From positions 1 through 21,399 of IMG/VR virus record IMGVR_UViG_3300004448_000054: DNA of 21,399 nt; one strand, written 5' to 3'. The position numbers were made by a program, and so were the translations under genes. Positions 7,794 through 13,085 of this stretch are shown piece after piece; the stretch's first letter is position 1; each line of letters begins with the position of its first letter. Source of the DNA: a virus. Below the pieces are notes generated by a model, which was not told where the DNA came from, did not search any database, and was given only the letters and a program-made list of their open reading frames with translations.

Positions 7794-7822
7794 AGTTTAT
7801 TAAGCTACCTTAACATTGTCAA
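7794..7822 (-). promoter_or_regulatory. Sigma70-like promoter for the 7755-6768 operon
   Basis: Reading the minus strand, a perfect TTGACA (7822-7817) is followed by a 17-base spacer and TAAACT (7799-7794, four of six to consensus). The transcript would have a leader of about 30 bases with AAGGAG before ATG 7755. The -35 box sits in an imperfect dyad TTGACA-A-TGTTAA, a possible operator. Confidence 0.6.
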
Positions 7823-10186: not shown

Positions 10187-10217
10187 TTTATTTGTAAATT
10201 TGTTGTTTATTTGTTAA
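10187..10217 (+). repeat. Direct repeat TTTATTTGTWAA, candidate operators
   Basis: TTTATTTGTAA at 10187-10197 and TTTATTTGTTAA at 10206-10217 are spaced 19 bases apart, nearly two helical turns. They cover the -35 and reach into the -10 of the plus-strand promoter and lie just upstream of the divergent minus-strand promoter. This is where the Cro-like protein encoded next door could bind. Operator function is inference. Confidence 0.45.
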
Positions 10218-10226: not shown

Positions 10227-10457
10227 ATGGATAAAACTTCAACAAGAGCAATGATTGCCCTATTAGGTGGGCCTACAAAAGTAGCAAACCTAGTAGGAGT
10301 AAGCGTTCCAGCCGTATCTATGTGGCAAAACGGCATTATTCCCTATGACAAGCTGGTAATCCTAGCCGCCACGCTAGAAAAGCAAAGCCATGGTTTATGG
10401 TCAAGAAAAAGCCTTTTTCCGCTTTCTTACAAAATGATATGGCCTGAAATTGAATAA
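10227..10457 (+). CDS. Cro/YdaS-like helix-turn-helix regulator
   Basis: This 76-aa protein has a helix-turn-helix in residues about 8-45: MIALLGGPTKVANLVGVSV, then PAVSMWQNG, then IPYDKLVILAATLEK. The pattern GGPTKVANLVGVSVPAVSMW is typical of YdaS/Cro-type phage regulators. The C-terminus is basic then aromatic. It lies beside divergent promoters and a direct repeat that could be its operator, so it likely switches early minus-strand transcription against its own. It has no dimerisation or cleavage domain of the CI type. The TTG start of the next gene lies within its last eight bases. Confidence 0.85.
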   Translation: MDKTSTRAMIALLGGPTKVANLVGVSVPAVSMWQNGIIPYDKLVILAATLEKQSHGLWSRKSLFPLSYKMIWPEIE

Positions 10458-11223
10458 GCCACACATTGTTGCTTTTGGTGGCGGTGTAGATAGTACAGCC
10501 ATGATTTTAGGGTTATACGAAGCCAACAGACCAATAGATTTAATTCTTTTTGCTGATACTGGCGGTGAACGCCCTGAAACTTACAACCATATTGAAAATT
10601 TTAGCAATTGGTTAGCAAGCAAAGGTTTGCCTGTAATCACAATAGTAAAGCGTGTTAGAAAAGATGGAAGCCTAGAAACCCTTGAAGAAGAATGTCTTAG
10701 GTCAAACACTTTGCCGTCTATTGCTTATGGCTACAAAAGGTGTTCTCAAAAACACAAAATAGCCCCACAAGACAAATATTGTAACCATTGGCAACCAGCA
10801 GTTGATTGGTGGAAAACAGGCTCAAAATGCGTTAAATACATTGGCTATGACGCTGGTGAAACCCGTAGGGCTGATAATGCCGCCAAGCGTGACGATCCCA
10901 AATACGAGTATGAATATCCATTAATTGAATGGCAATGGGAACGAGAAGATTGTTTAGAAATTATTGCAAAACATGGAATTACCAATGTTGGTAAATCAGC
11001 TTGCTTTTTTTGCCCATCGTCACGGCCTAAAGAAATTGTTGATTTATATGAAAAACATCCTGATTTGCTTGAAAGAGCGTTAACAATAGAAAAAAATGCT
11101 GAATTAAATGTAATTCAAGGTTTAGGCAGAAATTACGCATGGTCAGAAATAATTTTGATGCACAAATCTCAAATGACGCTACCTTTTGTGGGTTTTGATA
11201 CCCCATGTGAATGTACTGAATGA
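10450..11223 (+). CDS. PP-loop ATPase of the PAPS-reductase-like superfamily
   Basis: The PP-loop is at residues 8-17 (AFGGGVDSTA), followed by the family block LILFADTGGERPETYNHI (31-48). PP-loop enzymes activate a substrate by adenylation, often before adding sulfur. Nine cysteines include Cys98 (KRCSQKHK), Cys185 and Cys188 (ACFFCPSS) and Cys253/Cys255 (CEC). Cys98 plus the CxxC could hold an iron-sulfur cluster, as in assimilatory reductases or DndC/TtcA-like enzymes. The start must be the TTG at 10450, because the first ATG lies after the PP-loop. Its stop overlaps the glycosyltransferase-like gene (ATGA). The superfamily is certain; sulfate reduction, nucleic-acid thiolation or another adenylation all remain possible. 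Confidence 0.85.
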   Translation: MNKPHIVAFGGGVDSTAMILGLYEANRPIDLILFADTGGERPETYNHIENFSNWLASKGLPVITIVKRVRKDGSLETLEEECLRSNTLPSIAYGYKRCSQKHKIAPQDKYCNHWQPAVDWWKTGSKCVKYIGYDAGETRRADNAAKRDDPKYEYEYPLIEWQWEREDCLEIIAKHGITNVGKSACFFCPSSRPKEIVDLYEKHPDLLERALTIEKNAELNVIQGLGRNYAWSEIILMHKSQMTLPFVGFDTPCECTE

Positions 11224-11774
11224 ATAACATTACCCTGTGCTGTATTGATTCGGCACAACCTGACAAAGCCTTAAAAGCGATGGAAAGGTGCAAGAAATAC
11301 TTTAATTTTGGCGGTGAAATCTTTATAAATGACCCCAAAATCAATAGCCGCCAAGCGTATAGCAAATTCATCCTTCAGGAACTGTATAAACAGGTTTATA
11401 CGGACTTTGTTTTAATAGTCCAATGGGATGGGTTCATTATCAATCCTGACGCTTGGAATGACCAATTTTTAAATTATGACTACATTGGGGCGGTATGGCC
11501 GTGGCATCAAGAAGGTAGACGAGTAGGCAATGGTGGCTTTAGCCTACGTTCAAGGGTGCTTTGCGAACTAACCGCCAGCCCTGAGTTTGTCTATACAAAT
11601 GAAAACGAAGATGACCAAATTTGCCATGTAAACAGGGATTTTTTAGAAAGTCAGGGCATGAAGTTTGCACCTGAAGAAATAGCCCGTTATTTCAGCTTTG
11701 AGCGTGAATTGTCCAATATTAAGACTTTTGGCTTTCACGGGGATTTTAATTTTGAAAGACTTGGGTTATACTGA
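11220..11774 (+). CDS. DUF5672 glycosyltransferase-like protein
   Basis: This 184-aa protein has the DUF5672 motifs: VLIVQWDGFIINPDAW (64-79), YDYIGAVWPW (86-95), VGNGGFSLRSR (102-112), NEDDQICH (129-136) and FGFHG (170-174). This family is a nucleotide-sugar glycosyltransferase group usually found in polysaccharide clusters. Here it is full length or slightly short and overlaps the PP-loop gene by four bases, so the two are probably co-translated. It may sugar-modify phage DNA, a virion protein or host surface glycans. The sequence does not show which. A stable hairpin and T-rich run follow the stop directly. Confidence 0.82.
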   Translation: MNNITLCCIDSAQPDKALKAMERCKKYFNFGGEIFINDPKINSRQAYSKFILQELYKQVYTDFVLIVQWDGFIINPDAWNDQFLNYDYIGAVWPWHQEGRRVGNGGFSLRSRVLCELTASPEFVYTNENEDDQICHVNRDFLESQGMKFAPEEIARYFSFERELSNIKTFGFHGDFNFERLGLY

Positions 11775-11803
11775 CGGGGCAGATTCGACCCTGTTTAGTT
11801 TTA
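11774..11803 (+). terminator. Probable intrinsic terminator after the DUF5672 gene
   Basis: ACGGGG (11774-11779) can pair with CCCTGT (11789-11794), six pairs with one G-U, around a nine-base loop, followed by TTTAGTTTT. It starts on the last base of the stop codon. The T-run is interrupted, so termination may be partial. The loop bases also form a stem of the RNA described next. Confidence 0.4.
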
Positions 11804-12180
11804 CTAGCCTAGACCCTTTAGGGTTGCTTTGAGCGTTTTGGAAAGGCTGGCTGGTCTTTTCTAAAGCGGGTCGAACTTAGAGCAACCTTAAGGGGTTTTT
11901 CTATTTCTGCCTAGCCCGTACTCATTGGTGTTGCTACGGTAAAGGCTGTAAATACCCCTAGAAACTACTAGGTGCTTATGCACCCTTCCCTATCCGTTAT
12001 TGCTTGGATAGCTAGAAGAACCGTCCTGTATGGATAGACCGATGATGTGATAAAGACAGACCTAGGCACGACAAAGACATCGAAGCAATAATTTGAGCCA
12101 AGAACTCAGCAAGACTGACAAGCTATTCCTCATAGTAGGGATAGCTATGTCCTGAATCTTGCAATCCTGACAAAAAAACA
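11774..12180 (+). ncRNA. Candidate structured non-coding RNA region (about 390 nt), family unknown
   Basis: No frame of useful length lies between 11775 and 12233 on either strand, yet the block is full of complementary segments. (a) 11784-11791 TTCGACCC with 11868-11875, 8 pairs. (b) 11820-11833 with 11876-11889, 14 consecutive pairs including three G-U and one U-G; a and b interleave as a pseudoknot. (c) inside b, GGAAAG with CTTTTC (11840-11861), then a T5 run at 11896-11900. (d) CCTAG/CTAGG hairpin 11957-11972. (e) GGTGC/GCACC hairpin 11971-11984. (f) CTATCC/GGATAG 11990-12011, whose loop (11997-12005) pairs nine of nine with 12083-12091. (g) a 19-pair long hairpin 12109-12162. GC for 11881-12120 is about 45 percent by hand count, slightly above neighbouring genes. 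No tmRNA, tRNA, hammerhead or group I intron core was recognised. One or two RNAs are possible, the first ending near 11900. Confidence 0.55.
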
Positions 12181-12195
12181 ACAGTTATAAATAAT

Positions 12196-12226
12196 TTGTT
12201 ATTATTAAGCCTACTTAACATATACT
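12196..12226 (+). promoter_or_regulatory. Promoter for the 12234-14286 gene chain
   Basis: TATACT at 12221-12226 is a good -10 box, with TTGTTA 19 bases upstream (12196-12201, four of six). The expected start is near 12233, one base before ATG 12234, so the transcript would again be leaderless or nearly so. The long spacer lowers confidence. Confidence 0.45.
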
Positions 12227-12233
12227 TTCTTAC

Positions 12234-12332
12234 ATGGAAAACTTAATGTTAATTTTCTCTGTTGGAATCTTTGCCATACTTGGTGCGGTATTGCTTCTTT
12301 TGTTCATCATTCTTTATTGGGTAAAAACATGA
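12234..12332 (+). CDS. 32-aa membrane peptide at the head of the replication-gene chain
   Basis: A 32-codon frame from ATG 12234 encodes Met-Glu-Asn and then one long hydrophobic span (LMLIFSVGIFAILGAVLLLL, continuing FIILYW), ending in Lys-Thr. Its stop overlaps the next ATG (ATGA), matching the overlaps throughout this chain. No ribosome site precedes it, but the promoter places the transcript start at or beside its ATG. It is probably translated. The function is unknown. Confidence 0.55.
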   Translation: MENLMLIFSVGIFAILGAVLLLLFIILYWVKT

Positions 12333-12565: not shown

Positions 12566-12717
12566 TTGAAACTTTAATTAAACCCCAGCCGCTAGACAAC
12601 GACATTGCCGTAATGAAAATATTGCAATTAATGGGTCAGCTATCTTTAAACGACATTGAATACATTACCAAACTAACCTCACAAGTGAGCAGTTTAATAA
12701 GCGAGAAATCACAATGA
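12562..12717 (+). CDS. 51-aa hypothetical helical protein
   Basis: This frame starts at an ATG overlapping the previous stop and ends with a TGA overlapping the next ATG, so it is tied into the chain on both sides. The product is helical with a Pro-containing start (IETLIKPQPLDNDIAVMKIL) and an amphipathic end (YITKLTSQVSSLISEKS). It has no cysteines, and no motif is recognised. The exact overlap pattern is the main evidence that it is a real gene. Confidence 0.6.
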   Translation: MIETLIKPQPLDNDIAVMKILQLMGQLSLNDIEYITKLTSQVSSLISEKSQ

Positions 12718-13085
12718 CCTTTGCCCTTTTCTATGGTTTATATCCCCGTAAAATGGCTCGTAAAGACGCTGAAAAGGCTTGGAATAAGCTAACCCCTACG
12801 GAGCAAGCAGAATGTCTTGAAGCTATGCCTAATTACCTTAAATACTGGAAGATTAAGGAAACGGCTAAAGATTACATCCCATACCCTGCGTCATTTTTAA
12901 ACGCTCAACGGTGGACTGATGAAATTGACATTGAGCCTTTAAAGAAACCTGAGTTGCCTTGGTATTCCAGCGAAGAATTAACGGCTAAAAAAGCCCAAGA
13001 GGTTAATTGCCCTGCTTATGCTGGAGAAGCGTGGGCGGCATGGCGGTCTAGGATTGCACAGAAAATAAAGCAAATTGAAGCCTGA
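12714..13085 (+). CDS. Replication-protein-like (DnaT / O-protein C-terminal type) domain protein
   Basis: The pattern FYGLYPRKMARKDAEKAWNK (residues 6-25), then YIPYPASFLNAQRWTDE (54-70), is widespread in phage replication initiators and primosomal DnaT-like proteins. In those it often forms the part that contacts single-stranded DNA or the helicase loader. At 123 aa this protein carries only that module. No N-terminal origin-binding winged helix is present, so a separate initiator would be needed, or it acts as an accessory to host DnaB. The tail is helical and basic. Motif recognition is good; the mechanism is inference. Confidence 0.75.
   Translation: MTFALFYGLYPRKMARKDAEKAWNKLTPTEQAECLEAMPNYLKYWKIKETAKDYIPYPASFLNAQRWTDEIDIEPLKKPELPWYSSEELTAKKAQEVNCPAYAGEAWAAWRSRIAQKIKQIEA

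Follow-up and report, generated by a model that had tools for sequence, protein, structure and literature searches.

The window analysed here, i.e. the whole stretch of 21,399 bases of a freshwater virus record, harbors a gene-free stretch bounded by the stop of a DUF5672 gene (11774) and by the next possible start (12234), within which no open reading frame of at least 50 amino acids exists on the + strand. The initial annotation had described about 450 bases devoid of usable frames, and this was borne out: over the six frames of 11774-12180 the longest open stretch counts 45 amino acids, on the - strand, each frame contains at least seven stops, and a hidden conserved reading frame is absent. 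The GC content of 11881-12120, previously put at about 45%, is 44.6% (40.5% in the window). The fold of the + strand beats all shuffles (z = -4.5), the value for the - strand being z = -3.0. The Rfam covariance-model search of the window, tmRNA included, revealed no family at cut-off, and ARAGORN found no tRNA or tmRNA in it, nor any tRNA in 44 scanned loci. A replication-initiation-like gene lies downstream of the block, at 12714-13085. On the basis of sequence and covariation, we regard this block of about 410 nt as a structured RNA element, which probably encodes a functional viral RNA and consists of two domains (boundary at about 11911, 3' limit at about 12171). Its features are the following:

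11767..11772, + strand: candidate -10 box TATACT, from sequence, sharing bases with the stop codon of the preceding DUF5672 gene
11773..11911, + strand: domain A, predicted 5' double-pseudoknot domain, from covariation; model R1 detects type B modules as well
11778..11783, + strand: GGCAGA, pairing either locally (Pa, 11779-82/11791-94) or with UCUGCC at 11906-11911 (P0)
11784..11790, + strand: P1 5' strand, hypervariable pseudoknot helix, pairing with 11869-11875
11803..11809, + strand: P4 5' strand, second pseudoknot, pairing with 11849-11855, from alignment-free complementarity
11811..11833, + strand: P2 5' strand, 23 bp with 11876-11898
11834..11868, + strand: P3 and its loop, 13 bp (11834-11846/11856-11868)
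11849..11855, + strand: P4 3' strand, in the P3 loop
11869..11875, + strand: P1 3' strand, fitting exactly into the gap between P3 and P2
11876..11903, + strand: P2 3' strand followed by TTTTT, terminator-like, from sequence
11911..12171, + strand: D1, predicted 3' domain, with hairpins Q1, Q3, Q4 and Q6-Q9 and pseudoknot Q5
11952..12098, + strand: divergent EGFOA-like core within D1
12205..12218, + strand: operator-like palindrome TTAAGCCTACTTAA of the next promoter, bounding the unit

A search with the upstream gene yielded 41 viral loci, and a similar gene-free block was found behind it in all of those with enough sequence; three pattern scans raised the set to about 160 distinct blocks. 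Four loci (L004-L007) were discarded as carriers, since their match is confined to a 16-mer pattern and the element itself is missing. The 5' module occurs in three types (A, B and C), with a few blocks carrying unrelated stems instead, and the 3' module in at least four (D1-D4). As the types were called by sequence patterns, the numbers of their combinations are approximate: A+D1 38, A+D2 43, A+D3 29, A+D4 1, A'+D1 2, B+D1 5, B+D2 22, C+D1 11, C+D3 2 and other+D1 7, ten rows of "other+D4" being left out as presumed chance occurrences of a 10-base pattern. This distribution shows that domains A and D recombine as units. Model R1, for which type A alone was used, detects type B modules with E values between 1e-10 and 1e-17 and, at the correct place, some type C modules with 0.001-0.009; this makes types A and B homologous and type C a probable homologue. 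Isolated phages and plasmids gave no noteworthy match to the block; A+D2, A+D3 and C+D1 blocks had no phage match, and R1, RF02932 and RF02955 had none in 369 bacterial genomes of one class. A D1 19-mer gave 14 matches in bacterial genomes, scattered over unrelated phyla and close to the number expected by chance; the one inspected (L279) is unrelated. In six loci (L050, L068, L073, L099, L102 and L110) D1 is accompanied by unrelated 5' stems closed by CTAGG/CCTAG and lies behind a Ref-like HNH gene; these loci are a second phage group with the same 3' domain.

The TATACT at 11767-11772 had been proposed as the origin of a transcript starting at about 11779; the hexamer is present, and the sequence is consistent with a candidate start near 11773-11779. 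It recurs immediately 5' of domain A in 86 out of 105 type A relatives, with TATAAT in six more, these 105 having been chosen by requiring such a box (three of about 125 candidates had none of the listed forms). No clear -35 box is present in the window, and a consensus promoter scan did not report this promoter. In L050, L102 and L073 a terminator lies upstream of the RNA, together with a good sigma70-like promoter. The gene upstream is a cro-like HTH gene in most relatives, DUF5672 in others and Ref-like HNH in a separate group, and many different genes follow downstream, so that the predicted unit begins just 3' of the -10 box whatever the identity of either neighbour. The presence of its own -10 box between varied neighbours on both sides argues for an autonomous phage RNA rather than for a gene-specific leader.

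As sequence comparison shows, the + strand folds into domain A, a double pseudoknot in which nearly all bases of the window sequence are pairable, and into the 3' domain D1, with a pseudoknot of its own. The elements of domain A follow one another in the order Pa or P0, P1 5', P4 5', P2 5', P3 5', the P3 loop with P4 3', P3 3', P1 3' and P2 3'; the position of P1 3', exactly between P3 and P2, implies that these helices can stack. Among 60 sequences, 33 of 56 pairs show changes on both sides, with 385 compensated cells (136 for the shuffled mean, 51-86 for slid controls) and a covariation score of 0.336 (0.138 shuffled, 0.05-0.08 slid). Pairing is kept in 98.3% of the cells of P1 (six of seven pairs double-changed), 96-100% of those of P2 (ten pairs) and 97.3% of those of P3 (eight pairs). 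Pa and P0, which exclude each other, are paired in 100% and 91.7% of cells, respectively, and AGCGGA/UCCGCU variants exist. P4 was misaligned by MAFFT and was therefore evaluated with an alignment-free test, which gave a mean complementarity of 7.3 within a sequence vs 4.5 between sequences (69 unique pairs). The G.U cells of domain A far outnumber the A.C ones (381 vs 33); therefore, the structure belongs to the + strand as RNA.

The helix P1 deserves a separate comment. When nearest relatives are compared, its rate of difference is 5.1 times that of the rest of domain A, the corresponding values being 0.8 for P2 and 0.2 for P3; the mostly unpaired linker J, whose alignment is uncertain, reaches 5.5 and is as fast as P1. 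Nevertheless, P1 remains paired at six or more of its seven positions in 41 out of 41 pairs of near-identical sequences (pairs that are mutually non-independent), and L016 and L064, identical outside P1, both keep its pairing. On the whole, P1 and P4 are kept through at least 14 different sequences. It is tempting to speculate that these RNAs represent a modular phage superfamily, in which the fast-diversifying, always-paired P1 would act as a self-recognition tag (e.g., in dimerisation or superinfection exclusion) and the interchangeable 3' domains would be effectors against different host functions or defences; we consider this idea rather doubtful.

In D1, 27 of 59 pairs are double-changed among 30 sequences, with 113 compensated cells vs a shuffled mean of 31 and at most 40 in slid controls. 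Its pseudoknot Q5 joins the Q4 loop to 12083-12091 (11997-12005/12083-12091). Thus, the pseudoknots anticipated by the initial annotation find a counterpart in P1 and P4 of domain A and in Q5, all backed by covariation (Q5 with few compensated changes), and its proposal of a structured phage non-coding RNA is supported by significant covariation among homologues. Near the 3' end of D1 lies an imperfect direct repeat, AGCAAGACTGACA/TGCAATCCTGACA (12108-12120 and 12160-12172), whose two copies change in step (e.g., in L057, L058, L002 and L080), though they do not pair fully with each other.

The same annotation had stated that the block has no recognisable match. This holds for Rfam families at cut-off and for tmRNA. 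Below the cut-off it does not hold, since the 3' domain gives a weak yet consistent match to EGFOA (RF02955), which ranks first among the sub-threshold families both in the window (18.3 bits, E = 0.006) and in L052 (E 0.033); in addition, a relative carries another Rfam family in the same slot (see below). Searched record by record, EGFOA falls at the same place in 18 of 20 D1 records (six of the matches being short and partial) and in none of ten others. D1 keeps the order of the EGFOA core, that is, ACCGUCC, a small hairpin and an outer helix enclosing an inner hairpin with the loop RUAAMGnnAGACCU (conserved part GUAAAG..AGACCU), and both the outer helix and the inner hairpin covary in the D1 alignment. 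Unlike EGFOA, D1 is about 260 nt long (vs 108) and adds a 5' hairpin, the pseudoknot and a 3' hairpin, and domain A is no part of EGFOA. All scores stay below the gathering cut-off of 37.7 bits, the best being 29.1 bits in L091; we therefore read D1 as a distant relative of EGFOA, outside the family by curated score. Among the other 3' modules, D2 covaries as well (20 of 43 pairs). In the related phage contig L034, a Betaproteobacteria-1 RNA (RF02932; 3703-3824, 104.7 bits) occupies the 3' slot behind a type A domain (R1, 99 bits), so that this Rfam family, whose model covers the 3' domain only, may be half of a larger RNA. Its cut-off of 49.4 bits is reached in L034 only; RF02932 has no match in D1 of the window, nor in the D2 and D3 loci.

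If the block were decayed coding DNA or folded by chance, an idea for which only the absence of an ORF speaks, then double changes at 33/56 and 27/59 pairs, far above the shuffled and slid controls, and a P1 pairing kept in 41/41 comparisons would not be expected; we regard this explanation as refuted for all practical purposes. It is also improbable that the block is a replication or recombination DNA element (an origin or a primer RNA) that folds incidentally: its location upstream of the replication-initiation-like gene and the D1 3' direct repeat, co-varying as a repeat, would fit such a role, but the G.U-rich, strand-asymmetric covariation points to RNA, and the neighbour genes differ in the Ref-like-HNH contexts.

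A more serious competitor, although we hold it to be the less likely reading, is that of a cis-acting leader, in which domain A would be a conditional terminator (P2 plus U-run) or, together with D, an antitermination element controlling the downstream early/replication operon. The put RNAs of phage HK022 are antitermination RNAs of this sort, structured early phage transcripts located near early promoters; the RNA described here is much larger and pseudoknotted, and in most cases it has an operator and a further promoter-like sequence behind it. The GC-rich P2 followed by the U-run TTTTTCTATTT at 11899 has the form of a terminator-type hairpin, and the U-run is found 3' of P2 in types A, B and C. 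Moreover, block and downstream genes share the same orientation, D1 has no terminator at its 3' end, and in L067, L068, L073, L110 and L121 the RNA leads directly into a ribosome-binding site and ATG. Because the U-run is present and a 3' terminator is lacking, a cis role keeps some probability. However, in most relatives a TTAAGNNNNCTTAA palindrome, operator-like and usually accompanied by a promoter-like sequence, lies downstream of the RNA before the next gene, the downstream genes vary, and the loss of the U-run in L091, L097 and L105 (all type C) argues against a universal terminator role. Furthermore, no conserved alternative partner of P2 and no antiterminator strand overlapping it were noticed by non-systematic inspection, Pa and P0 being the only exclusive pairings found.

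Hence, we favor an autonomous phage RNA that has two domains, measures about 400 nt and acts in trans; to this reading we assign a probability slightly above one half (about 0.55). The host RNA polymerase might start at about 11778 and read through the U-run after P2. Domain A would fold co-transcriptionally, Pa and P1 forming first and P0 closing once its 3' strand has been made; it might protect the 5' end and present the 3' domain, which, in turn, would do its work in trans, bound to a partner from the host or the phage. The 3' domain might belong to an interchangeable set of modules that includes the EGFOA-like and Betaproteobacteria-1 RNAs, both of which Rfam types as sRNA genes, in agreement with an autonomous RNA. 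Against the autonomous RNA speak P2 and its U-run, which look like a terminator that would cut A from D, and the finding that D1 lacks a 3' terminator and in some relatives leads directly into an SD-ATG. If this is correct, EGFOA-like and Betaproteobacteria-1, both of them orphan candidates in Rfam, would become alternative 3' modules within a single larger phage RNA, and a new pseudoknotted 5' domain would be gained, strongly supported by covariation and represented by about 160 distinct examples. The swapping of modules and the hypervariable, always-paired helix would offer testable clues to function, in an RNA short enough for structural work.

As for the known large phage RNAs, the element resembles GOLLD and ROOL in being phage-encoded and pseudoknotted, and GOLLD combines a conserved 3' part with a variable 5' part (PMC12286853). 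Unlike these RNAs, which often, though not always, occur with tRNA islands, it has no tRNA in the window or in the 44 loci, and at about 410 nt it is shorter than many GOLLD members, which exceed 800 nt. The GOLLD and ROOL covariance models, like those of every other large ornate family, do not match the window either at gathering cut-off or with E up to 5; the suggestion that it falls into their size class was therefore not upheld. Other candidates were rejected as well: the 5' end resembles tmRNA by eye (GGGGCAGATTCGAC), which neither ARAGORN nor Rfam detects; the element is neither a 6S RNA nor a group I intron; and sub-threshold miRNA matches to the hairpin P2/P3 are attributed to chance. 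HDV-like ribozymes have a P1/P2/P3 topology resembling the present one, but here P1' abuts P2' without J4/2 or P4, so that no catalytic C can be placed.

Lastly, some observations concern the flanks of the RNA. In the window, PAPS-reductase-like and DUF5672 genes (10450-11774) separate it from a cro-like gene; both are absent from L002, L003 and L008, where the RNA lies directly behind the cro-like gene. A small ORF (12234-12332), directly after the operator-like site, encodes a 32-residue hydrophobic peptide (MENLMLIFSVGIFAILGAVLLLLFIILYWVKT). Exact copies of the palindrome TTAAGNNNNCTTAA lie at 7800, 10158 and 12205, and one with a single mismatch at 10214, the operator-like site being common to the region before the cro-like gene and to the promoter after the RNA.
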